Made by a program: the position numbers and the translations under genes | Shown: positions 1,827 to 64,000 of the stretch, in pieces | Layout: every line of letters begins with the position of its first letter | How positions within the stretch are numbered: the first letter of the stretch is position 1 | Source: Antedon bifida | Lineage: Eukaryota > Echinodermata > Crinoidea > Comatulida > Antedonidae | Length of the DNA stretch: 64,000 nucleotides | Assembly: GCA_963402885.1 (NCBI GenBank) | Contig: OY727094.1 | Coordinates: 3,660,501 to 3,724,500, forward strand | Reading direction: 5' to 3' | Notes under the pieces: model-generated | Seen by the model: only the letters and a program-made list of their open reading frames with translations | Told to the model about the DNA's origin: nothing | Database searches by the model: none

Positions 1827-2710
1827 TAAAAAAAAGCATAAATTGAAACAGAAACCTTTAACTTTAATTAAGAGCACGGCCCCATCTGACTTCCCATTTA
1901 GATTCATAGTTCTTAGTTTTTTTCCTCGAATCTTTCTAATAATAACATCAATCAATATAATGTTTCAAATACATCATTCATTTCCATCTCCCTCGATGTT
2001 TTTCATTCATCATACATAAATGCTAGTTTAATCGAAGGTCTATCAACATCAGCGCTCGTTATTGCTTTTCAAGGCTTCCCATATACGATATATTGTTGCG
2101 GTTCGGAAAAACATTTTTATTTGTTCAAATGAAATACATTTCCTTGAATATGCCCAAAAAAAAACATTGGCCTGATTTTTTGTAATCGTTATCGAATAAT
2201 CTTTGAATGAGAGGTCACGAAAAGGACACGATGATGGATGTTTGTACAGCCGTCAACAAGGGTGAGACATGGAACGCCATCGCTGCCGGAGGCAGCAAAC
2301 TTCAATTCTATTGGACAGGCTTACAACGCAACAAAACCCCCGAATAATTCATAATATCGCGCCATGGAGGTGATCCATGCATATGACTTAAAACTTATAT
2401 TGACGAAAATAAATTATTACTAATATACAATAAGTATTGTATTCACTATCGTATTCATTGAATTGTCACTTCCAAAAACGCAATTTATTCGAAAGATTTG
2501 AAGAGCGTTTTAACATTATGCCATTTGTTTACGTTTAGCTCGCCTTTGTGCTTGGAATTGGTGTCATCCAGTGAATTTTGTTGATAGAAATTATGATAAA
2601 CATCATGATAAGTTCTTAAATTGATAACATTAATATTTAATTTTAATCTAAAAAGCGAATGAAATACTTAGTCGTCCTGATCGATAAGGGTCCGGTACCG
2701 TGTTGAACTT

Positions 2711-2859
2711 TAAGCTTGGTTCCCACTAGGAGAACGCATGGATACAAGGACGTACGCACAACTTGTGACCAATCACAGGCGATGACTTATCCGGGCTATC
2801 ACGTTTCATTGATCGATTACGTCGTTGCGTTGCGTCCAGTGGGAACCAACCAAGCTTAA
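2711..2859. mobile_element. MITE-like element, GGTTCCCACTAG family, complete copy
   Basis: This is the cleanest copy in the window: it begins AAGCTTGGTTCCCACTAG and ends CCAGTGGGAACCAACCAAGCTT, giving near-perfect terminal inverted repeats over about 150 bp. The inside carries CCAATCACAGGCGATGAC and TTGCGTTGCGTCC, shared with the other copies. No coding capacity. Confidence 0.65.
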
Positions 2860-3245
2860 GTTTACACTGCCTAATTTTGATTTCTTTTGAAATACAAAAT
2901 AAATGTGCGTCTATATTTAATACATGTCCTGCAGTAACAAGTATATCGATCATCATCACACAAAGGTTACCTACAGAGAACTAGCTGTTTAACCTCAAGT
3001 AAAAACGCATTTAGCTAATTAATAGCACTCTGCTGCCGTTCGCTTTTTGTTTATGAATCTGACACCGATTTCATATAAAGTGTCACAAATTAATCATACT
3101 CGCACTAAATTTCAGCGAATGACGTTATATTATTATTTTTTTGATTTATTTAATTGATTGAATTCAATCATTATTGACCAAATAATAGCGCATAAAATAA
3201 CCTATTAGTTAATTAATTAGTTAATATTAAATAACTATTTATACC

Positions 3246-3282
3246 ACGGAGGTAATAAATATATATTTTTTACCTCCATGTA
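3246..3282. repeat. Short hairpin GGAGGTA...TACCTCC
   Basis: CGGAGGTAATAAATATATAT is followed by TTTTTACCTCCATG, a stem-loop of about 35 bp. A similar GGAGGTA...TACCT hairpin sits at 19945-19992, so the two may be related fold-back insertions. Confidence 0.4.
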
Positions 3283-3439
3283 TTGTTATATCGTAGGCCT
3301 ATATATAGCGTATCAAATAAATTGGTAAAAAGATTTTTGTTATAATATACAGTCGATGGTAATGAGGGCGCACTTAATTTCTAGGGTAGGTACAGTGGTA
3401 AAGTTCGGCGGGCATTATAATTTTTTTGTAGCCTAGAGA

Positions 3440-3478
3440 ATGTTTATGTATTTTCTGGTTTTCTTTGTTGTGATATGA
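3440..3478 (+). promoter_or_regulatory. Candidate upstream ORF overlapping the RAD1 start
   Basis: ATG at 3440 (a second, in-frame ATG at 3446) opens a 12-codon frame that ends with TGA at 3476-3478. This stop overlaps the RAD1 initiator ATG at 3475-3477 as ATGA. If the transcript starts upstream of 3440, ribosomes would have to leak past or reinitiate at RAD1. Use of the uORF is inferred; the overlap is seen directly. Confidence 0.35.
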
Positions 3479-6400
3479 CCCTTTCAACACAAGAAAGTGA
3501 CGAGGACAATCAATACGTTTTGATTGCCAAAATTGATAATGCCAAAAATATATCAAACGTCCTAAAAGCAATTTTGTGTAAAGATAAAGAAGTAAGTATA
3601 TCTAGCCTAGGCCTAGGCCTGCTAGTGCTAGGCTTACGTACGTAGCTAGCCTACCAGGCATAGTACTAGATAGGCCTGGGGCCTACGTTAACGTCTTTTA
3701 ATATTTATTTAAAGTTAGGCCTATTTATAAATAGCCATAGCAATTTTTAATCCTACAAAAATAATAATCTCTTCACTTCATCACTCAGTTTTAAGTTAAG
3801 TAAGTATCACTCAGTACAGTTGCTTGCTTCTCTTGTTTGCTTTTGTTTGTTGTTGTAGGCCTGTGCCTAGGCCTAAATGTTCAAAATAGATTTATTAATA
3901 TTTTATTTTTGTAGCTGGCAACAGTATTTGCAACTGAGAATGGATTGAAAGTTACGGTTGAAGATTCCAAATGCGTTCAAGCAAATGCATTTTTACAAGC
4001 AACAATCTTTCAAAGTTACATCATTCGGGAAGAGTCGGCTACATTCAAGATTAGTCTTAATGTTTTACAGGTAAAAGTTGGACAGAAGCACCACACTAAC
4101 CTTGTATATTGATTTGTTCATCTACAGTAATGATATACCCAGAAGTATCTACAATCAATCATATTATTGTATTGCAACTTGGTTTAACAAATTATAGTTT
4201 AACAAATTATATATACATTTCTATATTATCCTTTCCTATTATCCTTCCACTAAAAAGTGAAGAAATATATAATATATATATATATATATTTTAATTTTTT
4301 CAGGAGTGTTTGACCATATTTGGTGGTGGATCATCTCAAGGATCGAACCCAGCACTTAAGATTTGTTATGCTGGTTATGGAAGCCCACTATTGCTTATGT
4401 GAGTGTATTTACACAATCTCCAAGTTTGTCAAAATATGCTTTTACTGATTTTTCTGGCTTGTTCTGTGGATGAATACAGTTGTATTTTATTGCCGTTTTT
4501 ATTTTAATTCTGTATAGGTTGGAAGAAAATGGAGTACTGACTGATTGTAGTATAAAAACATTGGAGTCAGATGAGACGCTAGATTTCAACTTTACAAGTG
4601 CAAATGTCATTAACAAAATTATTATGAAGGTCACTGATTTATGTCTTTGATTAAAAACTACTTTCTACAAAATATGTCTATTATTCTAGTGTAGGCCTAG
4701 TTACTGTTTGTTGCAATGACTGCCTCGAGAATTAACATTAAGACAACTAAATATATGAAACTGTGTATGCACCACACACCATATGCATGAAAATTTGATA
4801 GCCAGTAGTGAAGCAGTAGCCTTCAACAATGAAGTTTGTTCCTAAATATAAGAACTAAATCATACTTTATTGCAGTGAAAAAAAGTTACTGCAGTAGCTG
4901 CATTAACTAATTTTGACATGGTCCCAAATTCATCTATATAATTAAAGTAAAGTATTTTATTCCCAGTCCCATTCCCATGTTTTTTAGATCTAAAAATCTA
5001 ATAATCGTACAAAACTAAGCCTAGCTAGGCTAAGCCTAAAGACCGTCCACGAGAGGATATTTGACGCGAGCTACTTTTGAGTAGTGCATTGTTTCTCTCT
5101 TTTTATCATAATTTACCATAAAACATACCTTTAACAAGGAATGACCTGGTTTAATGTTTTTAAAGTTATATATGATATGCATTATTTTTACAAACCGTCA
5201 AAAATTGTAGGGAATATGGGCTTTAATTTTTTCAGTATGTTTGAATCTATGTGTAAAAAACAATACTGTATGTTTAGATCATTATTACATTTTTTACCAT
5301 GTCATATTCAGATTAACAATTCTTATATTACAGTCGGAGTGTCTAAAAGAAGCTTTCCAAGAACTAGACATGACAAGCGAGGTACTAGAGATACTGTTGT
5401 CACCTGATAAGCCTCACTTCAGACTGACTACATACGGCGTGTCTGGAAGCGCTTTTGTAAGATTTTCTCTGTTTTTTTTTACAAAATCCCTAGCTTCATA
5501 TTCTTTACAATTACCTTACATCCTCTGGTATAATCCCACCACCTCCACTCTATAACACAAAACCGGGCCAAATTTGAGTGGTAGGAATATACCAGGGAAA
5601 ACCCTGGTGTTCAGGAAAAAAATGATTGGTAAGTATTGTAAAAACTCATCTGAACTGGCTAGAGAGAGGCCTACATCCAGACCAAAAGTCAATACTGGGA
5701 CTATACCCAAGGATATGCCTGTATGTGAAATCAGACATAGAGTAGGGGGTGGGACTAGATCTGATTTGGGATTATACCTGAGAATATACGGTATTCTAAT
5801 AATTTAAGTTGATTTGTTTCAATCTTAATATTGTAGATTGTATATTTTTGTATACATAAACATGCATTGCTACTCTGTATATTGAAGCAGTTGATAGTAA
5901 TATACCTTAAGGAAGTATAGAAGCTTTTACACAGTTACCAATATCCATTACTGAGTAAAATGTAGAAAAATATTCATTACATAATTGCATACGCAACATA
6001 AAAATTCAGAAGTTACGTGCAGTGTACCAGTGTGGTCATTTATGCCTTAATTAACAATGCTATATAGTATTTGATATTAACTATAATATTTAAATTCCTC
6101 TTTCATAAATCAAAGTTCTTCCTTCTGCTCAGTCAATAATAAAGTTTAAAAAATAATGTTTAAAAAAATGATAACTTACTACAGTATTATATCTTAACAA
6201 AATTGACCAGGTTTTTAAAAAATTATTATTAATTATTATTATTATTTCTGCTGTATGAGTATTGAGTTTGTTTTAGGATGGTAGATAAAGGAGAAGTGAT
6301 GAGTACAAAAGATAAATTGATGCATGTGTGTAGCCCAGTATACACTGTTGCGTTCCTTATCTGTAGGCATAAAGCTCCGTTTACACTATCAAACTAAAAA

Positions 6401-17500: not shown

Positions 17501-19023
17501 CCCATATAATACGGCCATGATGATGTCATATCACTACCATATTTGGGCAAATCACAAACTAGTTTGATAGTGTAGACAGAGCTTTAGAACAAATTCAACA
17601 TCGAAAACAAAGCTACTTTTTACTGTAATTTGTGTAAAATTATCTGCAGCTGAAATATTAATTAAATAATTAGATACCTGAGATGCATTATAGTTTACAA
17701 TTTACTATCCTAGTTAATTATTGAATCTACGAATTATTTTGTTTGAACAATTGACAAACAAGTGATTAAATTATAAAGCTGCCAACCACATTATCAAAAG
17801 ATTGCAGATGTTTGAACAAATTGAAAATAAACAGAAATTTATTTGAATAAATTAAGTCTCATTTGAAATATTAAAATTAACTATTATTAACTAAAAAAGC
17901 CCATTTTCATATTGTTTTCTAAGACACAAAAAAGTTAATTTAAGTTTTTTTTCTGAAAACTAATATGTTATAACTAATAGTTTAATTGATAAACATATGG
18001 ATGAAATGTACTACAGTATGATATGAGTGATATGATACACTTGGGAGTGTTATTGCAATATTGGGTGATTTCATAGGGAAGTAAATTGATAATTAATATT
18101 GTGAACATTCAGATGGCACATTTAATTTTATATTTAATTCTACACAGCATGATTGTAAATTACTAGAATATAATTGTATGTTTAATTAATCAAATAAATT
18201 CACTTTAAATCATACATTTATGTTGCAATTTAGTTTTTTAACTGCAGCTGTGTTAAAAGAGAAAGAAATTAATAACATTTTCATTAATCAATAACAATAA
18301 AAGAAAAATTAAATATGTTTTATTACTTTTATTTACTTTTTTTAATACAGTTTGATACTGCAAAAGGCATAGAATATTGGGAGAATAAGGTTTATCGCAA
18401 ATAGCGTGCGCGACGAGTATGTACGTGATTTGTTGTTTTTACGTACGCGTCATGACGTTTGCTCCCAAACCCTTCCAATCCCAGCATGCATTGTGAAATG
18501 ATGTTCATCGTGAATTCAAGCTATTTGCGATAAACCTTATGTCATGAAGACTCACATAGGCCTACATTAAAGAACTGCTAAAAAGGTATATTTTTATATA
18601 CAGCTAGCTAGTATGGTATACTATTACTATAATGTATAAAATTAATAATTATTAATATTATTTATTTTTATTATTTACCTTTTGCATTGATGCTGCAAAA
18701 TAAACTTCACAAAACTTTAAAATAAGAACATAACGGCCATCCTCTTTTAGAGGAATATCATAGCCAAATGTTTCATCGTGGTATCGCTCTGTTTGATACA
18801 AAATCATATCTTCAGGCCTCACTCGACTTATCTGCATATTTCGACCGTAGTCCGATACTATACCGGTTGAGAGCGTGTCTTCGTTGTATCGAATGCCGTT
18901 CTCATCTGTGTGAGCCTGGCCTCCAGAATTTACTGCAAATATTACCTTTCCTATAGCTAAAACCTGACATAATAATAAACATTGCAACAATATGCAAAAC
19001 ATTATTTGCATATTATGACCCAT
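14592..19023 (-). CDS. MLEC: Malectin, ER carbohydrate-binding protein
   Basis: Malectin is a type I membrane lectin of the endoplasmic reticulum that binds diglucosylated high-mannose N-glycans early in glycoprotein quality control. Four minus-strand exons join in phase: 19023-18679, 16831-16652, 15455-15398, 14836-14592, predicting 275 residues. A hydrophobic signal peptide (about residues 7-24) is followed by the malectin fold: [79 protein letters not shown] and GTEDDVPKLP. An Asp/Glu-rich linker (about 205-225) precedes a C-terminal membrane segment [20 protein letters not shown] ending at the stop, as in vertebrate malectin. Length is a little below the human protein (292). The start ATG is the only one in exon 1 preceding the signal peptide. 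The gene is head-to-head with TYW1. Confidence 0.96.
14955..15085. repeat. Nested palindromes in MLEC intron 3
   Basis: ACATGTGATTC.TGTATCATA occurs twice, and each copy faces its complement CTATGATACAG; a final CACATGTGAAACACATGAGA closes the cluster. The arrangement is a run of interleaved inverted repeats that could fold into several hairpins. It matches no other repeat in the window. Confidence 0.55.
15628..15750. mobile_element. Palindromic MITE copy 5
   Basis: Both ends are present (AAAGCTCTGTCTACAC and GTGTAGACAAAGCTTT), but about 20 bp of the left arm after the terminal repeat is lost. It lies in MLEC intron 2. Confidence 0.75.
17450..17585. mobile_element. Palindromic MITE copy 6
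   Basis: Complete ends AAAGCTCTATCTACACTATC and GATAGTGTAGACAGAGCTTT. The right arm lacks the usual poly(T) stretch. It lies in MLEC intron 1. Confidence 0.8.
18385..18540. mobile_element. 156-bp MITE with perfect 21-bp terminal inverted repeats
   Basis: The first 21 bp (18385-18405), ending TAAGGTTTATCGCAAATAGC, are repeated exactly in reverse complement at 18520-18540. The inside is GC-richer, with ACGTACGCGTCATGACG. Perfect ends suggest recent insertion. No other copy is seen in the window. It lies in MLEC intron 1, about 140 bp downstream of exon 1. The flanks do not give a clear target duplication. Confidence 0.8.
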
Positions 19024-19497
19024 CTTACAAGTATAATAAACAAAATTAACAAGATAACAGTGAGTGTTTACGTCGAGAAATCCACCGGTCGGTCGCGAAT
19101 CAGATTAGGCCACACAACACATGTAAGGTTAAAGGTGAAATAAACAATTTAAAAAGTTTTTACTTATAAAAGATAAGAAACAATATTTATATGCTACTTA
19201 AACTAATTTATAAAGATAACAAAAATATAAATCATATAAAATATTATTTTAAACAAATTCTTGAAATCTAGATCTGCATGAAAATAAAACAAATGTTTAG
19301 CTAATTTCTTATTAATTTCCCACCAGCCATTGTTACAAAATGTCAGCCTCCGTCGTCGAGGGGTGGTCAGTTTGGCTGTCAACATTAATTGTTTTACTTG
19401 ATAGTGTAGGGTATGCAAATGCACAAGGTATTATAATGAAAATACAACGATTTTGTTTAAACTTGAATTGATGAATAGGTTTTCCGTATACATTTTC

Positions 19498-32180: not shown

Positions 32181-33205
32181 TAGCTCTCTGGTGCTGTAAC
32201 TGGTTTAATAGCTCTCTGGTGCTGTAACTGGTTTAATAGCTCTCTGGTGCTGTAACTGGTTTAAGAGCTCTCTGGTGCTGTAACTGGTTTAATAACTCTC
32301 TGGTGCTGTAACTGGTTTAATAGCTCTCTGGTGCTGTAACTGGTTTAAGAGCTCTCCGGTGATGTAACTGGTTTAGCTCTCTGGTGCTGTAACTAGTTTA
32401 ATAGCTCTCTGGTACTGTAACTGGTTTAATAGCTCTCTGGTACTGTAACTGGTTTAAGAGCTCTCTGGTTCTGTAACTGGTTTAGCTCTCTGGTGCTGTA
32501 ACTAGTTTAATAGCTCTCTGGTACTGTAACTGGTTTAATAGCTCTCTGGTACTGTAACTGGTTTAATAGCTCTCTGGTGCTGTAACTGGTTTAATAGTTC
32601 TCTGGTGCTGTAACTGGTTTAAGAGCTCTCTGGTGCTGTAACTGGTTTAATAGTTCTCTGGTGCTGTAACTGGTTCAATAGCTCACTGGTGCTGTAACTG
32701 GTTTAATAGTTCTCTGGTGCTGTAACTGGTTTAATAACTCTCTGGTTCTGTAACTGGTTTAATAGCTCTCTGGTGCTGTAACTGGTTTAATAGTTCTCTG
32801 GTGCTGTATCTGGTTTAATAGCTCACTGGTGCTGTAACTGGTTTAATAGCTCTCTGGTGCTGTAACTGATTCAATAGCTCTCTGGTGCTGTAACTGGTTT
32901 AGCTCTCTGGTGCTGTAACTGGTTTAAGAGCTCTCTGGTTCTGTAACTGGTTTAAGAGCTCTCTGGTTCTGTAACTGGTTTAATAACTCTCTGGTGCCGT
33001 AACTGGTTTAATAACTCTCTGGTTCTGTAACTGGTTTAATAGCTCTCTGGTGCTGTAACTGGTTCAATAGCTCACTGGTGCTGTAACTGATTCAATAGCT
33101 CTCTGGTGCTGTAACTGGTTTATTAGCTCTCTGGTGCTGTAACTGATTCAATAGCTCACTGGTGCTGTAACTGGTTTAACAGCTCTCTGGTGCTGTAACT
33201 GGTTT
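32181..33205. repeat. 28-bp minisatellite, about 37 units
   Basis: The unit reads AGCTCTCTGGTGCTGTAAC then TGGTTTAAT. Some units lack AATA or carry single changes (GGTTCTG, GGTACTG, CTCACTGG), in runs that suggest higher-order duplication. Because TTTAAT is in most units, the minus strand shows ATTAAA, the commonest variant polyadenylation signal, about every 28 bp. The array stops 4 bp from the POP5 stop codon and so occupies the POP5 3' UTR position. It lies about 410 bp beyond the TYW1 polyadenylation signal. Confidence 0.95.
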
Positions 33206-53015: not shown

Positions 53016-54528
53016 CTAGAATTTAATTCGTCACTTTGACGAATTATAGGTGATCATTTTCATCATTTTAATGAAATTAACATTTTTTAAACATGCATGT
53101 ACGTTAACATGCGATCGTAAATGTACGCCATCCTATGACATGATGCATATACACTTATAGTGCTGAGTTGTACCTATTATGTGTTATATACAATACAGTA
53201 TATACTGTATATCTATATACAGTGTAGCATAGGTGAAATTACGGGACCCACATCATGTTCTAATTTGTTGGTATGATGGAATTATCATAATAAACTCGAA
53301 GATGACAATTTCGAAAGATAATGAATTGAGCAAATAAATATACGGATTGGAAGAGAATTCGACACGTAGAAGCGCAATGCGCGCTCTTTGAAATTTGTAT
53401 ACATTTGACGAAAGAGAGAAAAAAACTACTTTTTAACTTCAACTGACCATTTCATAATGTCACAACATCCGATAGGCCTAATTTTTATATGAATTCATAT
53501 CTACATTTCATCAGCTTTTATAATAAATTATAATCTTCAAGGTCACCTTTAATTCTGAAGAGCTGTAAGATATTCAAATGTATGGTGTAGCTGAAAATAC
53601 ACGACCTTGGTTTTTTAAGTTTTTACGCGTGATGACGTCATCAAAATAAAAATGTTGACAACTCATGAGAAAGATAATTAATTGAGCAAGCACATACTAA
53701 AATTTGTGCAAAAATTTGGTTCAAATAACGGAGATGCGCTCTATTGAATGTGATAACCCACACAAAAAGATAAAAATTACTAATTTTTAAATTCAAGTGG
53801 CCTTTTGATGACGTCATATCATTTTGTACGTCTAATGTGTATATACATTTATATCTACAACTCATTTGCTTCCATATTAAGTTAAAAAAATTGGGGGTCA
53901 TCTTCCATTCTGAAGAGTTATATTCATTTTAAAAAGGCCCTACTTTTTACCATTTTTAGCACTTTTGTACAATTAATGTGCGCATTTTGTCATTTTTAAC
54001 GTGCTCGTATAGCGTTATTTTAAGTCTGAATGGACTCAAAGTCGGAGAATGTACTAAGGATTATGAGTAGAATGTGATGTGTACATCAAATTTTATTTTT
54101 TACGCTTTTTAAAAATCCCGTGCGCAAAAACATGTTTTTGCGCAGTAATTTTTTAAAACACGCAAATGGCCTATTTCATGCTCTAAATTGATCAAAACTT
54201 AATTTTGAGCTTTTTAAAATTTTAACGCGCGATTCCACGCGCATGACCTTGAAACGCGCGAGTTTTTATTTGCTAATATTTTTACCCTTGACCTGAAGTT
54301 TACGTGTAGTGAATTTCATTAATATGTGATAATGAATTATGGAGATATGATTGATAATGTGATTTCACAAAATCGCGTATTAATGACGTCACGGTTGAGT
54401 GATCACACTGAAAAGCTTATTATGGTTAAGTTAAAGTATTTAAAAGACATTGTGAAAAATTTGTGATCATTGACATTTAACTTTTTGAGATAATTGTTAC
54501 ACAAATTTGTACAGAGAGAAATAAATAA
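53016..54528. repeat. Array unit A (subtype 1)
   Basis: Complete 1513-bp unit. Subtype-1 marks: CATGATGCATATACACTT, GGTATGATGGAATTATCA, and the 24-bp perfect palindrome centred on AAAAACATGTTTTT near 54130. Confidence 0.85.
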
Positions 54529-56041
54529 CTAGAATTTAATTCGTCACTTTGACGAATTATAGGTGATCATTTTCATCATTTTAATGAAATTAACATTTTT
54601 TAAACATGCATGTACGTTAACATGCGATCGTAAATGTACGCCATCCTATGACATGATGCATATACACTTATAGTGCTGAGTTGTACCTATTATGTGTTAT
54701 ATACAATACAGTATATACTGTATATCTATATACAGTGTAGCATAGGTGAAATTACGGGACCCACATCATGTTCTAATTTGTTGGTATGATGGAATTATCA
54801 TAATAAACCCGAAGATGACAATTTCGAAAGATAATAAATTGAGCAAATAAATATACGGATTGGAAGAGAATTTGACACGTAGAAGCGCAATGCGCGCTCT
54901 TTGAAATTTGTATACATTTGACGAAAGAGAGAAAAAAACTACTTTTTAACTTCAACTGACCATTTCATAATGTCACAACATCCGATAGGCCTAATTTTTA
55001 TATGAATTCATATCTACATTTCATCAGCTTTTATAATAAATTATAATCTTTAAGGTCACCTTTAATTCTGAAGAGCTGTAAGATATTCAAATGTATGGTG
55101 TAGCTGAAAATACACGACCTTGGTTTTTTAAGTTTTTACGCGTGATGACGTCATCAAAATAAAAATGTTGACAACTCATGAGAAAGATAATTAATTGAGC
55201 AAGCACATACTAAAATTTGTGCAAAAATTTGGTTCAAATAACGGAGATGCGCTCTATTGAATGTGATAACCCACACAAAAAGATAAAAATTACTAATTTT
55301 TAAATTCAAGTGGCCTTTTGATGACGTCATATCATTTTGTACGTCTAATGTGTATATACATTTATATCTACAACTCATTTGCTTCCATATTAAGTTAAAA
55401 AAATTGGGGGTCATCTTCCATTCTGAAGAGTTATATTCATTTTAAAAAGGCCCTACTTTTTACCATTTTTAGCACTTTTGTACAATTAATGTGCGCATTT
55501 TGTCATTTTTAACGTGCTCGTATAGCGTTATTTTAAGTCTGAATGGACTCAAAGTCGGAGAATGTACTAAGGATTATGAGTAGAATGTGATGTGTACATC
55601 AAATTTTATTTTTTACGCTTTTTAAAAATCCCGTGCGCAAAAACATGTTTTTGCGCAGTAATTTTTTAAAACACGCAAATGGCCTATTTCATGCTCTAAA
55701 TTGATCAAAACTTAATTTTGAGCTTTTTAAAATTTTAACGCGCGATTCCACGCGCATGACCTTGAAACGCGCGAGTTTTTATTTGCTAATATTTTTACCC
55801 TTGACCTGAAGTTTACGTGTAGTGAATTTCATTAATATGTGATAATGAATTATGGAGATATGATTGATAATGTGATTTCACAAAATCGCGTATTAATGAC
55901 GTCACGGTTGAGTGATCACACTGAAAAGCTTATTATGGTTAAGTTAAAGTATTTAAAAGACATTGTGAAAAATTTGTGATCATTGACATTTAACTTTTTG
56001 AGATAATTGTTACACAAATTTGTACAGAGAGAAATAAATAA
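54529..56041. repeat. Array unit B (subtype 1), near-identical to A
   Basis: Same length as unit A (1513 bp). I found four substitutions (AACTCG/AACCCG, AATGAATT/AATAAATT, GAATTCG/GAATTTG, CTTCAAGG/CTTTAAGG), all in the first 550 bp compared, and none in the later parts I checked. Confidence 0.85.
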
Positions 56042-56187
56042 TAAGAATAAGAAGAAGAATAAAGATTTGATACAATAACAATAGGTGATCATTTTATTCT
56101 AAATGATCACCTAATAAGAATAAGAAGAAGAATAAAGATTTGATACAATAACAATAGGTGATCATTTTATTCTAAATGATCACCTAA
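56042..56187. repeat. Spacer: two 73-bp repeats, each with a 32-bp palindrome
   Basis: ATAAGAATAAGAAGAAGAAT, AAAGATTTGATACAATAACA and then TAGGTGATCATTT-TATTCT-AAATGATCACCTA occur twice in tandem. The palindromes are at 56082-56113 and 56155-56186. The arm TAGGTGATCATTT is the sequence found just inside each unit start. Confidence 0.85.
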
Positions 56188-57412
56188 TTAATTGAGCAAA
56201 AAATATAAGATTTGGAAAAAAATTTGGCACGTAGAAGCGCTGTGCGCGCTCTTTGAATTGTGTATAACTTTGACGAAAAATATGAAAAAACTACTTTTTC
56301 ACTTCAACTGGCCATATGTTAACGTCACAACATCCGATAGGCTTAATTTTTATATGAATTAATATCTACATTTCATCAGCTTTCATAATAAATTATAATC
56401 ATCAAGGTAACCTTCAATTCTGAAGAGCTGTAAGATATTCAAATTTACTGCGAAGGTGAAATTACACGGCCTACGTTATTCAAGTTTTTACGCGTGATGA
56501 CATCATTAAAATGAAGATAGTGTCAACTCATGATAAAGATAATTAATTAAGCAAGCACATACTGAAAGTTGTGCGAAATTCGAGCACACATAACCAAGAT
56601 GCGCTCTGTTGAATGTGATAATCTACACAAAAAGATAACAAATCCTAATTTTTAAATTCAAGTGGCCATTTGATGACGTCAAAACATTTTGTACGTAAAG
56701 TGTGTACATGAATTCATATCTACAACTCAATGGCTTCCAGAATAAGTTAAAAAAATCGGGGGTCATCTTGCATTCTGAAGAATTATTTTCATTTTAAAAA
56801 AGACCTATTTTTCACCATTTTCAGAACTTTTGTAAAATTAATATGCGCATTTTGTCATTTTTAACGTGCTCGTATAGCGTTATTTTAAGTCGGAACTGAC
56901 TCAAATTTGGTGAATGTACTAAGGATGGTGAGTAGAATGAGATTTGTAAAAAAAATTCATATTTTTTACGCTTTTTAAGTATCGCGCGCGCAAAAACGCA
57001 TTTTTGCGCAGTAATTTATTGAAACACGCAAATGGCCTAATTCATGCTCTAAATTGATCAAAACTTAATTTTGAGCGTTTTAAATTTTTAACGCGCGATA
57101 TCACGCGCATGAACCTACGTGCGCGTGCTTTTTTTTTGCTAATATTTTTACCCTTGATCTGAAGTTTACGTGTAGTGAATTTCATTAATATGTGATAATG
57201 AATTATGGAGATATGATTGATAATGTGATTTCGCAAAATGGCGTATAAATGTCGTCACGGATGAGTGATCACGCTGGAAAGCTTATTAGGATTAAGTTAT
57301 ATTATTTGAAAGATATTCTGAAATTTTTGTAATCATTGACATCAAACTTTTTGAGATAATTGTTACACAAAATAGTGTACAGAAACAATAAAAAGAAAAA
57401 AAAAAAGAAAAA
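56188..57412. repeat. Array unit C (subtype 2), left end missing
   Basis: Begins at ATTAATTGAGCAAAAAATAT, corresponding to position about 300 of a full unit (57711 in unit D), immediately after a spacer palindrome. The rest is full length. Confidence 0.8.
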
Positions 57413-58949
57413 CTAGAATTTAATTCGTCACTTTGACGAATTATAGGTGATCATTTTTATCATTTTACTGAAATTAATTTTTTTTTAAACATGCACGTAC
57501 GTTAACATACGATCGGAAAATGTTGATGTATGCCATCCTATTATATGCTTATAGTGCTGAGTTGTGCCTATATGCCATATACAATATGTACAGTATATAC
57601 TGTATATCTATATACAGTGTAGCATAGGTGAAATTACGGGACACATGTTCTAATTTTTTGGCATGATGACGTTATCAAACTAAACTTTAAGATAACAATT
57701 TCGAAAGATAATTAATTGAGCAAAAAAATATAAGATTTGGAAAAAAATTTGGCACGTAGAAGCGCTGTGCGCGCTCTTTGAATTGTGTATAACTTTGACG
57801 AAAAATATGAAAAAACTACTTTTTCACTTCAACTGGCCATATGTTAACGTCACAACATCCGATAGGCTTAATTTTTATATGAATTAATATCTACATTTTA
57901 TCAGCTTTCATAATAAATTATAATCATCAAGGTAACCTTCAATTCTGAAGAGCTGTAAGATATTCAAATTTACTGCGAAGGTGAAATTACACGGCCTACG
58001 TTATTTAAGTTTTTACGCGTGATGACGTCATTAAAATGAAGGTAGTGTCAACTCATGATAAAGATAATTAATTAAGCAAGCACATACTGAAAGTTGTGTG
58101 AAATTCGAGCACACATAACCAAGATGCGCTCTGTTGAATGTGATAATCTACACAAAAAGATAACAAATCCTAATTTTTAAATTCAAGTGGCCATTTGATG
58201 ACGTCAAAACATTTTGTACGTAAAATGTGTACATGAATTCATATCTACAACTCAATGGCTTCCAGAATAAGTTAAAAAAATCGGGGGTCATCTTGCATTC
58301 TGAAGAATTATTTTCATTTTAAAAAAGACTTATTTTTTACCATTTTCAGAACTTTTGTAAAATAAATGTGCGCATTTTGTCATTTTTAACGTGCTCGTAT
58401 AGCGTTATTTTAAGTCGGAACTGACTCAAATTTGGTGAATGTACTAAGGATGGTGAGTAGAATGAGATTTGTAAAAAAAATTCATATTTTTTACGCTTTT
58501 TAAGTATCGCGCGCGCAAAAACGCATTTTTGCGCAGTAATTTTTTGAAACACGCAAATGGCCTAATTCATGCTCTAAATTGATCAAAACTTAATTTTGAG
58601 CGTTTTAAATTTTTAACGCGCGATATCACGCGCATGAACCTACGTGCGCGTGCGTTTTTATTTGCTAATATTTTTACCCTTGATCTGAAGTTTACGTGTA
58701 GTGAATTTCATTAATATGTGATAATGAATTATGGAGATATGATTGATAATGTGATTTCGCAAAATGGCGTATAAATGTCGTCACGGATGAGTGATCACGC
58801 TGGAAAGCTTATTAGGATTAAGTTGTATTATTTGAAAGATATTCTGAAATTTTTGTAATCATTGACATTAAACTTTTTGAGATAATTGTTACACAAAATA
58901 GTGTACAGAAACAATAAAAAGAAAAAAAATAATAAAAAAAAAAAAAATA
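57413..58949. repeat. Array unit D (subtype 2)
   Basis: Complete. Subtype-2 marks: TGATGTATGCCATCCTATTA, GGCATGATGACGTTATCAAA, GTCGTCACGGATGAGTGATC. The A-rich tail is about 60 bp. Confidence 0.85.
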
Positions 58950-60464
58950 ACTAGAATTTAATTCGTCACTTTGACGAATTATAGGTGATCATTTTTATCA
59001 TTTTACTGAAATTAATTTTGTTTAAACATGCACGTACGTTAACATACGATCGGAAAATGTTGATGTATGCCATCCTATTATATGCTTATAGTGCTGAGTT
59101 GTGCCTATATGCCATATACAATATGTACAGTATATACTGTATATCTATATACAGTGTAGCATAGGTGAAATTACGGGACACACATGTTCTAATTTTTGGC
59201 ATGATGACGTTATCAAACTAAACTTTAAGATGACAATTTCGAAAGATAATTAATTGAGCAAAAAAATATAAGATTTGGAAAAAAATTTGGCACGTAGAAG
59301 CGCTGTGCGCGCTCTTTGAATTGTGTATAACTTTGACGAAAAATATGAAAAAACTACTTTTTCACTTCAACTGGCCATATGTTAACGTCACAACATCCGA
59401 TAGGCTTAATTTTTATATGAATTAATATCTACATTTCATCAGCTTTCATAATAAATTATAATCATCAAGGTAACCTTCAATTCTGAAGAGCTGTAAGATA
59501 TTCAAATTTACTGCGAAGGTGAAATTACACGGCCTACGTTATTCAAGTTTTTACACGTGATGACGTCATTAAAATGAAGATAGTGTCAACTCATGATAAA
59601 GATAATTAATTAAGCAAGCACATACTGAAAGTTGTGCGAAATTCGAGCACACATAACCAAGATGCGCTCTGTTGAATGTGATAATCTACACAAAAAGATA
59701 ACAAATCCTAATTTTTAAATTCAAGTGGCCATTTGATGACGTCAAAACATTTTGTACGTCAAATGTGTACATGAATTCATATCTACAACTCAATGGCTTC
59801 CAGAATAAGTTAAAAAAATCGGGGGTCATCTTGCATTCTGAAGAATTATTTTCATTTTAAAAAAGACCTATTTTTCACCATTTTCAGAACTTTTGTAAAA
59901 TTAATGTGCGCATTTTGTCATTTTTAACGTGCTCGTATAGCGTTATTTTAAGTCGGAACTGACTCAAATTTGGTGAATGTACTAAGGATGGTGAGTAGAA
60001 TGAGATTTGTAAAAAAAATTCATATTTTTTATGCTTTTTAAGTATTGCGCGCGCAAAAACGCATTTTTGCGCAGTAATTTTTTGAAACACGCAAATGGCC
60101 TAATTCATGCTCTAAATTGATCAAAACTTAATTTTGAGCGTTTTAAATTTTTAACGCGTGATATCACGCGCATCAACCTACGTGCGCGTGCGTTTTTATT
60201 TGCTAATATTTTTACCCTTGATCTGAAGTTTACGTGTAGTGAATTTCATTAATATGTGATAATGAATTATGGAGATATGATTGATAATGTGATTTCGCAA
60301 AATGGCGTATAAATGTCATCACGGATGAGTGATCACGCTGGAAAGCTTATTAGGATTAAGTTATATTATTTGAAAGATATTCTGAAATTTTTGTAATCAT
60401 TGACATTAAACTTTTTGAGATAATTGTTACACAAAATAGTGTACAGAAACAATAAAAAGAAAAA
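58950..60464. repeat. Array unit E (subtype 2)
   Basis: Complete, very close to unit D, with a short A-rich tail (AATAAAAAGAAAAA) before the next CTAG. Confidence 0.85.
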
Positions 60465-62005
60465 CTAGAATTTAATTCGTCACTTTGACGAATTATAGGT
60501 GATCATTTTTATCATTTTAATGAAATTAACATTTTTTAAACATGCACGTACGTTAACATACGATCGTAAAAAGCTGATGTACGCCATCCTATGACATGAT
60601 GCATATACACTTATAGTGCTGAGTTGTACCTATTATGTGTCATATACAATATATACAGTATATACTGTATATCTATATACAGTGTAGCATAGGTAAAATT
60701 ACGGGACCCACATCATGTTCAAATTTGTTGGTATGATGGAATTATCAAAATAAACTCGAAGATGACAATTTCGAAAGATAATGAATTGAGCAAATAAATA
60801 TAAGGATTGGAAGAGAATTTGATACGTAGAAGCGCAATGCGCGCTCATTGAAATTTGTATAACTTCGACTAAAGAAATCTAAAAACTACGTTTTAACTTC
60901 AACTGGCCATATGATAACATCACAACATCCGATAGGCTTCATTTTTATATGAATTCATATCTACATTTCAACAGCTTTCATAATAAGTTATAATCTTCAA
61001 GTTCACCTTAAATTCTGAAGAGCTATTAGATATTCAAATGTATGGTGTAGCTAAAATTACACGACCTAGGTTATTCAAGTTTTTACGCGTGATGACGTCA
61101 TCAAAATAAAAATGTTTACAACCCATGAGAAAGATAATCAATTGAGCAAGCACATTCTAAAATTTTTGCGAAAATCGGGCTCAAATAATGGAGATGCGCT
61201 CTATTGAATGTGATAACCCACACAAAAAGATAAAAATTACTTATTTTTAAATTCAAGTGGCCATTTGATGACGTCATACCATTTTGTACGTCTAATGTGT
61301 ACATGAATATGTATCTACAACCCAATGGCTTCCCGAATAAGTTAAAAAAATTAGGGGTCACCTGCCATTCTGAAGATTTATATTCATTTTAAAAAGGCCT
61401 TATTTTTCACCATTTTCAGCACTTTGATGCAATTAATTTGCGCATTTTGTCATTTTTAACCTGCTCGTATAGCGTTATTTTAAGTTGGAACTGACTCAAA
61501 TTTGGTGAATGTACTAAGGCTGGTGAGTAGAATGCGATTTGTATAAAAAAATTGCATTTTTTACGCTTTGTAAGTATCGCGCGCGCAAAATATTTTTTTG
61601 CGCAGTAATTTTTTGAAACACGCACATGGCCTAATTCATGCTCTAAATTGATCAAAACTTAATTTTGAGCTTTTTAAATTTTCAACGCGCGATTTCACGC
61701 GCATGACCCTACGTGTGCACGCGTTTTTATTTGTTAATATTTTTACCCTTGACCTAAAGTTTACGTGTAGTGAATTTCATTAATATGTGATAATGAATTA
61801 TGGAGATATGATTGATAATGTGATTTCGCAAAATGGCGTATAAATGTCGTCACGGATGAGTGATCACGCTGGAAAGCTTATTAGGATTAAGTTATATTAT
61901 TTGAAAGATATTCTGAAATTTTTGTAATCATTGACATTAAACTTTTTGAGATAATTGTTACACAAAATAGTGTACAGAAACAATAAAAAGAAAGAAAAAA
62001 ACAAT
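60465..62005. repeat. Array unit F (mosaic of subtypes)
   Basis: The left two thirds carry subtype-1 words (CATGATGCATATACACTT, GGTATGATGGAATTATCA), while the right end has the subtype-2 GTCGTCACGGATGAGTGATC and ACACAAAATAGTGTACAG. It looks like a recombinant or an intermediate. Confidence 0.75.
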
Positions 62006-62176
62006 AAAGATTTTATACAATAACAATAGGTGATCATTTTATTCTAAATGATCACCTAATTAAATAAATTCATAGGAAGGAGCGTCTCACCAGTCCCTGG
62101 GGCCTGGTTTCACATGGAAATCCCTATCTATCTATTAGATGAACAATAAAGTAAGTTATAATAGTAAGTAATAAAA
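62006..62176. repeat. Spacer with palindrome plus unique DNA
   Basis: AATAAAGATTTTATACAATA leads to the 32-bp palindrome (62027-62058), then about 115 bp found nowhere else in the window (GGAAGGAGCGTCTCACCAGT, CCCTGGGGCCTGGTTTCACA). Confidence 0.75.
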
Positions 62177-63717
62177 CTAGAATTTAATTCGTCACTTTGA
62201 CGAATTATAGGTGATCATTTTTATCATTTTACTGAAATTAATTTTTTTTTAAACATGCACGTACGTTAACATACGATCGGAAAATGTTGATGTATGCCAT
62301 CCTATTATATGCTTATAGTGCTGAGTTGTGCCTATATGCCATATACAATATGTACAGTATATACTGTATATCTATATACAGTGTAGCATAGGTGAAATTA
62401 CGGGACACACATGTTCTAATTTTTTGGCATGATGACGTTATCAAACTAAACTTTAAGATGACAATTTCGAAAGATAATTAATTGAGCAAAAAAATATAAG
62501 ATTTGGAAAAAAATTTGGCACGTAGAAGCGCTGTGCGCGCTCTTTGAATTGTGTATAACTTTGACGAAAAATATGAAAAAACTACTTTTTCACTTCAACT
62601 GGCCATATGTTAACGTTACAACATCCGATAGGCTTAATTTTTATATGAATTAATATCTACATTTCATCAGCTTTCATAATAAATTATAATCATCAAGGTA
62701 ACCTTCAATTCTGAAGAGCTGTAAGATATTCAAATTTACTGCGAAGGTGAAATTACACGGCCTACGTTATTCAAGTTTTTACGCGTGATGACGTCATTAA
62801 AATGAAGATAGTGTCAACTCATGATAAAGATAATTAATTAAGCAAGCACATACTGAAAGTTGTGCGAAATTCGAGCACACATAACCAAGATGCGCTCTGT
62901 TGAATGTGATAATCTACACAAAAAGATAACAAATCCTAATTTTTAAATTCAAGTGGCCATTTGATGACGTCAAAACATTTTGTACGTAAAATGTGTACAT
63001 GAATTCATATCTACAACTCAATGGCTTCCAGAATAAGTTAAAAAAATCGGGGGTCATCTTGCATTCTGAAGAATTATTTTCATTTTAAAAAAGACCTATT
63101 TTTCACCATTTTCAGAACTTTTGTAAAATAAATGTGCGCATTTTGTCATTTTTAACGTGCTCGTATAGCGTTATTTTAAGTCGGAACTGACTCAAATTTG
63201 GTGAATGTACTAAGGATGGTGAGTAGAATGAGATTTGTAAAAAAAATTCATATTTTTTACGCTTTTTAAGTATCGCGCGCGCAAAAACGCATTTTTGCGC
63301 AGTAATTTTTTGAAACACGCAAATGGCCTAATTCATGCTCTAAATTGATCAAAACTTAATTTTGAGCGTTTTAAATTTTTAACGCGCGATATCACGCGCA
63401 TGAACCTACGTGCGCGTGCGTTTTTATTTGCTAATATTTTTACCCTTGATCTGAAGTTTACGTGTAGTGAATTTCATTAATATGTGATAATGAATTATGG
63501 AGATATGATTGATAATGTGATTTCGCAAAATGGCGTATAAATGTCGTCACGGATGAGTGATCACGCTGGAAAGCTTATTAGGATTAAGTTGTAGTATTAT
63601 TTGAAAGATATTCTGAAATTTTTGTAATCATTGACATTAAACTTTTTTAGATAATTGTTACACAAAATAGTGTACAGAAACAATAAAAAGAAAAAAAATA
63701 ATAAAAAAAAAAATAAT
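62177..63717. repeat. Array unit G (subtype 2)
   Basis: Complete, with an extended A-rich tail (AATAATAAAAAAAAAAATAA) before the spacer. Confidence 0.85.
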
Positions 63718-63774
63718 AATAAAGATTTTATACAATAACAATAGGTGATCATTTTATTCTAAATGATCACCTAA
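63718..63774. repeat. Spacer with palindrome between units G and H
   Basis: AATAAAGATTTTATACAATA and the palindrome at 63742-63773, followed by A and then CTAG of unit H. Confidence 0.8.
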
Positions 63775-64000
63775 CTAGAATTTAATTCGTCACTTTGACG
63801 AATTATAGGTGATCATTTTTATCATTTTAATGAAATTAATTTTTTTTTTTACATGCACGTACGTTAACATATGATCAGAAAATGTTGATGTATGCCATCC
63901 TATTATACACTTATAGCGTTGAGTTGAGCCTATTATATGCCATATACATTATGTACAGTATATAATGTATATCTATATACAGTGTAGCATAGGTGAAATT
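63775..64000. repeat. Array unit H, cut by the window edge
   Basis: First 226 bp of a unit, subtype 2 with extra changes (GATCAGAAAATG, TATACACTTATAGCGTTGAG), so the array continues beyond the window. Confidence 0.8.

Follow-up and report, generated by a model that had tools for sequence, protein, structure and literature searches.

A tandem array of Helentron/HINE-type transposon copies in the crinoid Antedon bifida, built largely by nested self-insertion

In the genome of Antedon bifida (GenBank assembly GCA_963402885.1), a unit of 1.5 kb is repeated in tandem from position 53016 to the end of a 64,000-nucleotide stretch of contig OY727094.1 (C7:3660501-3724500 in our contig numbering; hereafter the window). 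The locus raises the question of what this unit is and how its copies came to stand in a row. An earlier note, made from the letters of the window, had read the unit as a Helitron with a TC 5' end and an A^T target (carets mark junctions throughout) and the row as an outcome of rolling-circle transposition. Searches of the genome (315.6 Mb, 27 contigs) identify the unit, ~1.56-1.61 kb in length, as a non-autonomous rolling-circle element of the Helentron/HINE type, whose arrays were built largely by nested self-insertion and mostly not as rolling-circle concatemers.

The hairpin at the 3' end of the unit, AATTCGTCA-AAG-TGACGAATT, occurs at seven minus-strand places in the window (53025-63804), whereas none is expected based on 100 shuffles. 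All seven are followed by AAATT, CTAG and T, just as the earlier note had described. Genome-wide there are 1,676 exact hairpins (908 + 768 on the two strands), and a reversed-pattern control gave 0. On contig C1, we read 20 hairpin sites (L021-L040) from 100 places listed. Complete solo copies ending in CTAG, which the earlier note had proposed to look for, account for 13 of the 20, so the family does not consist of tandem arrays in place of solo mobile copies, as a satellite would. One further site is a nested pair (L031), one comes after the tail of another family (L032), truncation or deletion affects two (L029, L040), and the remaining three consist of the last 50-55 bp of the element alone (L027, L034, L039).

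In the solo copies, the front reads ..T^TAGGTGATCATTTAGAATAAAATGATCACCTATTG.., with the real start at TTAGGTGATCATTTAG, and lies ~70-110 bp outside the front end that had been proposed; that proposed end, TCTGTACA beginning with TC, is internal. The 3' end reads ..ATGATCACCTAT-hairpin-AAATTCTAG^T, and the length from AGG to CTAG is 1,562-1,610 bp. The head runs from TTAGGTGATCATTTAG to AAATGATCACCT and carries a palindromic subterminal repeat (AGGTGATCATTT / AAATGATCACCT), and the tail has the form ..ATGATCACCT-AT-hairpin-AAATTCTAG, with ATGATCACCT standing inverted before the hairpin in 61/62 family tails. The hairpin itself is a 21-nt palindrome 9 nt from the end of the element, and single-strand folding gave z scores of -7.4 for the head and -4.6 for the tail. 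A T follows the tail in all 74 tails of the loci examined (62 belong to this family and 12 to a related one). Solo copies sit in T^T rather than A^T, with T at both borders and no target duplication; their boundaries thus depart from those of the earlier note at the 5' end only.

Head and body are separated by a T-rich pad, which in L021 contains 29/228 TT steps and 2/215 AA steps. Pads rejoin without loss or gain if the element is read as TTAGG..CTAG, the number of terminal T being ambiguous. The variable junctions that the earlier note had seen between units are remnants of this pad. No stop-to-stop frame of at least 130 aa is present in 53016-64000, as expected of the non-autonomous form. 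In Helentrons/HINEs, a subterminal inverted repeat of at least 11 bp lies close to the 5' end and again ahead of the 3' end, and is palindromic in some families; the autonomous partner has the same ends and carries Rep/helicase (and an endonuclease). We assign the unit to the Helentron/HINE plan and not to canonical Helitrons because it starts with TTAGG, carries a palindromic repeat of which an inverted copy is found in the tail, and inserts at TT without duplication. A related family (family B; the family in the window is family A) follows the same plan, with head TTGGTTATCCGC, hairpin AACTCGTC..GACGAGTT and end TCTAG; relative to family A, its hairpin stem is changed on both sides, from T-A to C-G. 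Within the L021 element, diverged internal repeats lie ~353 bp apart (positions 400-1400, 72% identity).

The array in the window, all of it on the minus strand except where indicated, is composed as follows.

53016..64000, minus strand: array of Helentron-type (HINE) copies, family A; extends ~3.1 kb past the window (to position 6127 of locus L011)
53016..54528, minus strand: headless body, TCTC subfamily; its own head is the orphan at 56115-56187, and the tail of the orphan plus the remainder restores an intact pad exactly
54529..56114, minus strand: complete copy, sitting in the pad of the headless body 53016..54528; head at 56114, CTAG at 54529
56115..56187, minus strand: orphan head of 73 bp (a 73-bp repeat), split off by the nested insertion
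56188..57412, minus strand: headless body, interrupted ~300 bp short of its tail where the nested pair went in; its final part does not turn up behind 53016
57413..58950, minus strand: headless body with pad remnant
58951..60464, minus strand: headless body with pad remnant
60465..62059, minus strand: complete copy, head at 62059
62060..62176, no strand: 117-bp stretch of other DNA that separates two copies
62177..63774, minus strand: complete copy, head at 63774, directly after a CTAG (CTAG^TTAGG junction)
63775..64000, minus strand: 3' part of a headless copy, cut by the window edge and continued in L011
53025-53045, 54538-54558, 57422-57442, 58960-58980, 60474-60494, 62186-62206 and 63784-63804, minus strand: 3' hairpins

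Three units in the window start with the true 5' end, their heads lying at 56114, 62059 and 63774; a fourth head (56187) is an orphan. All seven tails point in the same direction. Together with L011, the array contains five orphan heads and five headless bodies. The palindrome TGACGTCA, a CRE/ATF-type site, occurs 15 times within the array (53633-62965).

The same arrangement was found at other array loci: heads are stacked on the 5' side of the arrays, in terms of the element strand (five in L011; three in each of L013, L014 and L020), and headless bodies come after CTAGs. In L013, three subfamilies follow one another in a given order among the heads and in the opposite order among the bodies. 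The outermost pad there, which a family-B insert has divided further, matches the pad of L030 once rejoined, and the corresponding body shares 99.4% identity with L030. For L014, rejoining yields the pads of the TCTC subfamily and of L036/L037; the middle body fits as well, and the edge of the locus cuts through the outermost one. Of the 51 heads in the loci examined, 15 are located inside another head or its pad (one of these, in L016, 16 bp into a head and not in the pad), although the pad of L021 has only 29/228 TT steps; seven lie directly after a family CTAG, one after a family-B CTAG and one a few T past a CTAG, and 27 lie elsewhere, including just one in a body.

Across the whole genome, we counted orphan heads as a head after AATCTTTA within 30 bp, and headless bodies as AATTAAATTCTAG followed by TCTGTACA within 11-41 bp; both patterns miss variants. 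This analysis identified 311 orphan heads (127 + 184 by strand) and 299 headless bodies (120 + 179), with 0 for either reversed-pattern control. Pairing was tested on C1 and C7, where the lists are complete (85 heads, 71 bodies). When each body was paired last-in-first-out to an upstream head, 41, 51 and 56 of the 71 bodies found a partner within 8, 15 and 25 kb, compared with 10, 12 and 12 for pairing in the wrong direction. At 15 kb, a control with shifted positions gave a mean of 0.32 and a maximum of 3 in 500 trials, against the 51 observed. Most of the 56 pair distances correspond to whole numbers of elements, as multiples of ~1.58 kb: 19 fall at 1.52-1.61 kb, nine at 3.15-3.22 kb, five at 4.75-4.88 kb and four at 6.3-6.5 kb, with the rest further apart. 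Hairpins, orphan heads or TGAG sites (described below) are dense at C1:15.2-15.44 Mb, C7:12.53-12.62 Mb and C8:22.8-23.05 Mb, which may be large clusters, centromere-like or not.

A number of results weigh against nesting or limit how far it can be read from the loci. When the tail of an orphan head was joined to the remainder behind a CTAG of the same locus, an intact known pad resulted for 6/13 headless bodies, and for 7/13 when arrays were merged, the seventh remainder being identical in letters to another; taken by itself this is a weak test, since pads consist of simple sequence, with a permutation mean of 4.0 and 54/2000 shuffles reaching 7. The array loci were partly picked for matches to one subfamily, and the counts of head positions in them are not genome frequencies. 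Relative ages from terminal branches agreed with prediction in 5/11 cases, but came from a flawed alignment and have no bearing on the order of insertion. On C1 and C7, 29/85 orphan heads and 15/71 headless bodies stayed unpaired, and so did five of six stacked heads at C1:20891726-20892048; such pieces may reflect deletions, variants that the patterns missed, insertions of family B or joint movement of copies with several heads, the last having been proposed in PMC5148889. The window array is not a perfect nest either, since the body broken at 56188 does not resume behind 53016 and the 117 bp of other DNA (62060-62176) lie inside it, and deletion or other events are therefore needed. An autonomous copy with the ends of the family was not seen.

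These results bear on the other ways in which such an array might arise. A rolling circle that bypasses its termination signal could lay down several head-to-tail units per event, and this is the known explanation of tandem Helitrons (PMC4067079, PMC5876387). The seven family heads directly after CTAG fit such an origin. For five of the six CTAG^TTAGG neighbours, identity was measurable (0.892, 0.910, 0.971, 0.993 and 0.883); the two pairs at 97-99% could be concatemers, whereas the three at 88-91% clearly are not. A concatemer also predicts a head at every junction and no orphan heads, in contrast to the 299 headless bodies and 311 orphan heads observed. We thus rejected it as the main cause on the basis of headless junctions, orphan heads and pairing, and give it only a very slim chance; most junctions of the headless type, for which the earlier note had invoked rolling-circle transposition, are explained by nested self-insertion. 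The chance is also slim that this is an ordinary satellite spread by unequal crossing-over, in which the transposon ends are mere relics. Some neighbours are 99% identical (0.989 in L031; 0.997 and 0.989 in the window), and unequal crossing-over may operate on arrays at a later stage and could account for unpaired pieces, but the solo copies on C1 (13/20), the mirrored subfamily order in L013 and the head-body pairing at multiples of the element length argue against it. A canonical Helitron with a TC 5' end and an A^T target has a negligible probability: the hairpin upstream of a 3' CTRR, here CTAG, is present, but solo copies begin with TTAGG (TTAGGTGATC) and not TC, and T flanks them on both sides, so we rejected those ends. 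What stands of the earlier interpretation is an element of the Helitron superfamily with a hairpin-CTAG 3' end and solo copies.

A search with the PF14214 profile (Helitron Rep) gave 39 matches in the genome, 38 of them above the curated cut-off, and 0 in 14 control genomes. Twenty matches lie in open frames of >2,000 aa, the longest of 3,182 aa; Rep-bearing copies include those at C8:19816895 and C11:11264147, and one of them may be the partner of the 1.5-kb copies. A partner of this family would be expected to have the ends AGGTGATCAT..hairpin-CTAG. Among the 25 longest frames of the loci examined, inspected by eye only, no Rep was noticed. L027 was tried as a lead to the partner and dropped, its interior being single-copy. 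At positions 2500-3193 of that locus, the last 40-70 bp alone match 23 other places, an indication that solo 3' ends preceded by unique DNA are numerous.

Some bodies begin with CTAG^TGAGAAATTGTTTTTGTAAAACAAAAAATGTTTC (the TGAG head) instead of the family head. A genome-wide search for this head, using a pattern without the CTAG, identified 47 exact sites (control, 0); we read all 47, among them L041, L042 and two sites in L019, and every one lies directly behind a family tail (CTAG^T). Four variant TGAG-like heads (L015, L018, L019 and L020) turned up when the sequence behind CTAG was inspected, and are excluded from the 47. The preceding tails vary, with 12 different 24-mers before the tail repeat at 43 sites. 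Seven TGAG units share 95.8-99.0% identity over 1.5 kb although the tails before them are of five kinds; the sequences following them also differ. Between L042 and L041, the TGAG unit is 98-99% identical in all eight segments, whereas the neighbour is 72-89% identical. The front of the TGAG unit folds weakly (z -1.9). Such near-identical units behind varied tails suggest, as judged from sequence comparison, that the TGAG unit moves independently and lands at CTAG^T; Rep would then recognise resident tails.

How a TGAG unit would move can be read in several ways. We tentatively suggest, as a possibility, that 3' ends of the form hairpin plus CTAG^T could act as recombination sites for mobile "cassettes" of TGAG units: lacking the usual left end, a unit would use the tail of its neighbour as its left border, be excised between that tail and its own, and be placed exactly behind another resident tail. 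It is unlikely that circles of TGAG units instead join arrays independently of Rep, by ordinary homologous recombination within the conserved tail. All family tails have ~45 nearly identical bp in common and arrays offer homology, but crossovers would then be expected in the 1.5-kb body too, and the L042 unit is 98-99% identical throughout while its neighbour is at 72-89%. Quite unlikely is a composite, in which TGAG is the second half of an element formed with the preceding copy and the variety of tails stems from later gene conversion. Composite Helitrons have been proposed (PMC5148889, PMC4067079), and arrays balance if TGAG units are counted as riders; however, the seven units of 95.8-99.0% identity follow five kinds of tail, the 43 sites have 12 different 24-mers, and linkage is kept for 1.5 kb rightward but lost within ~50 bp leftward. 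Fixed composites with the neighbour were accordingly rejected on the varied tails and the L041/L042 identities, although the composite is retained as a rival. If the cassette reading is true, an integron-like cassette system driven by a rolling-circle transposase would exist in an animal genome, beside TT-targeted nesting. The TGAG lineage makes it testable whether a Helitron-type 3' end is also a target or recombination site.

The explanation as a whole, a Helentron/HINE unit that forms arrays largely by nested self-insertion, with its tail as a second landing spot and a Rep partner, is in our judgement highly probable. A new copy lands at TT within the pad of an older copy, splitting it so that the older head is left upstream and a headless body remains behind the new tail. 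Every new copy would bring a fresh pad, allowing the process to repeat. Since only one strand of the pad is T-rich and copies insert at TT, those that enter pads should all keep one direction and would yield satellite-like arrays running head to tail. The tail (CTAG^T) is a second landing spot, and the only place at which the TGAG lineage was found. The Rep/helicase of autonomous relatives would move the copies, and could also connect an incoming strand to a resident tail. A landing strip carried by the transposon itself would let it become satellite-like DNA copy by copy, and hundreds of junctions preserve a readable record that favours nesting, whereas tandem Helitrons have so far mostly been read as rolling-circle read-through.

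The closest known systems compare as follows. HINE/DINE-1 elements (PMC4067079) likewise have a palindromic 5' subterminal repeat that recurs before the 3' palindrome, an unchanged T-rich/TT target with T at both borders, and no coding capacity, and clusters of them are reported; here, in contrast, clusters are readable as nested self-insertions into the head pad, a tail-only lineage is added, and the partner is a candidate only. In that paper (Thomas et al. 2014) and in PMC5876387, tandem Helitrons are put down to bypassed termination or read as evidence of a rolling circle. FoHeli/Helitron2 of Fusarium (PMC5148889) also has asymmetric terminal inverted repeats, and rows of its 5' termini were proposed as self-insertion, with one triple left undecided between nesting and rolling circle; that paper describes few cases, whereas the present genome offers 311 + 299 junctions with controls for pairing and direction. 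Cg_HINE of the Pacific oyster (PMC7492417) is a HINE with a T-rich target, no duplication and a link to satellite-like DNA, but in the oyster it is the elements that carry the tandem repeats, whereas here the element is the repeat unit. The Helraiser/Helibat Helitrons (PMC4778049, PMC5876387) share the 3' hairpin and CTAG, and PMC4778049 mentions copies that lie directly against another copy's 3' end; unlike our family, they have a TC 5' end, and the available passages do not mention a lineage confined to tails. In the open-access papers searched, judged by titles, the openings of abstracts and passages of a few papers, we recognised no report of a tail-only lineage or of a genome-wide nested count.

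At L034, a 3' end resembling family A lies between two frames (3-557 and 3023-3928) that are similar by eye, the second of which bears a Sulfotransfer_5 domain; a link between this arrangement and gene duplication is possible. Elsewhere in the window, a frame with a Malectin domain (PF11721, E 2.8e-24), in keeping with an animal host, is present on the minus strand at 18661-19104. A 28-bp repeat forms an array of ~37 copies with 91% matches at 32181-33205, and a 21-bp unit around CATATCACTACCATATTTGGG forms short scattered arrays in both orientations between 7328 and 50365.

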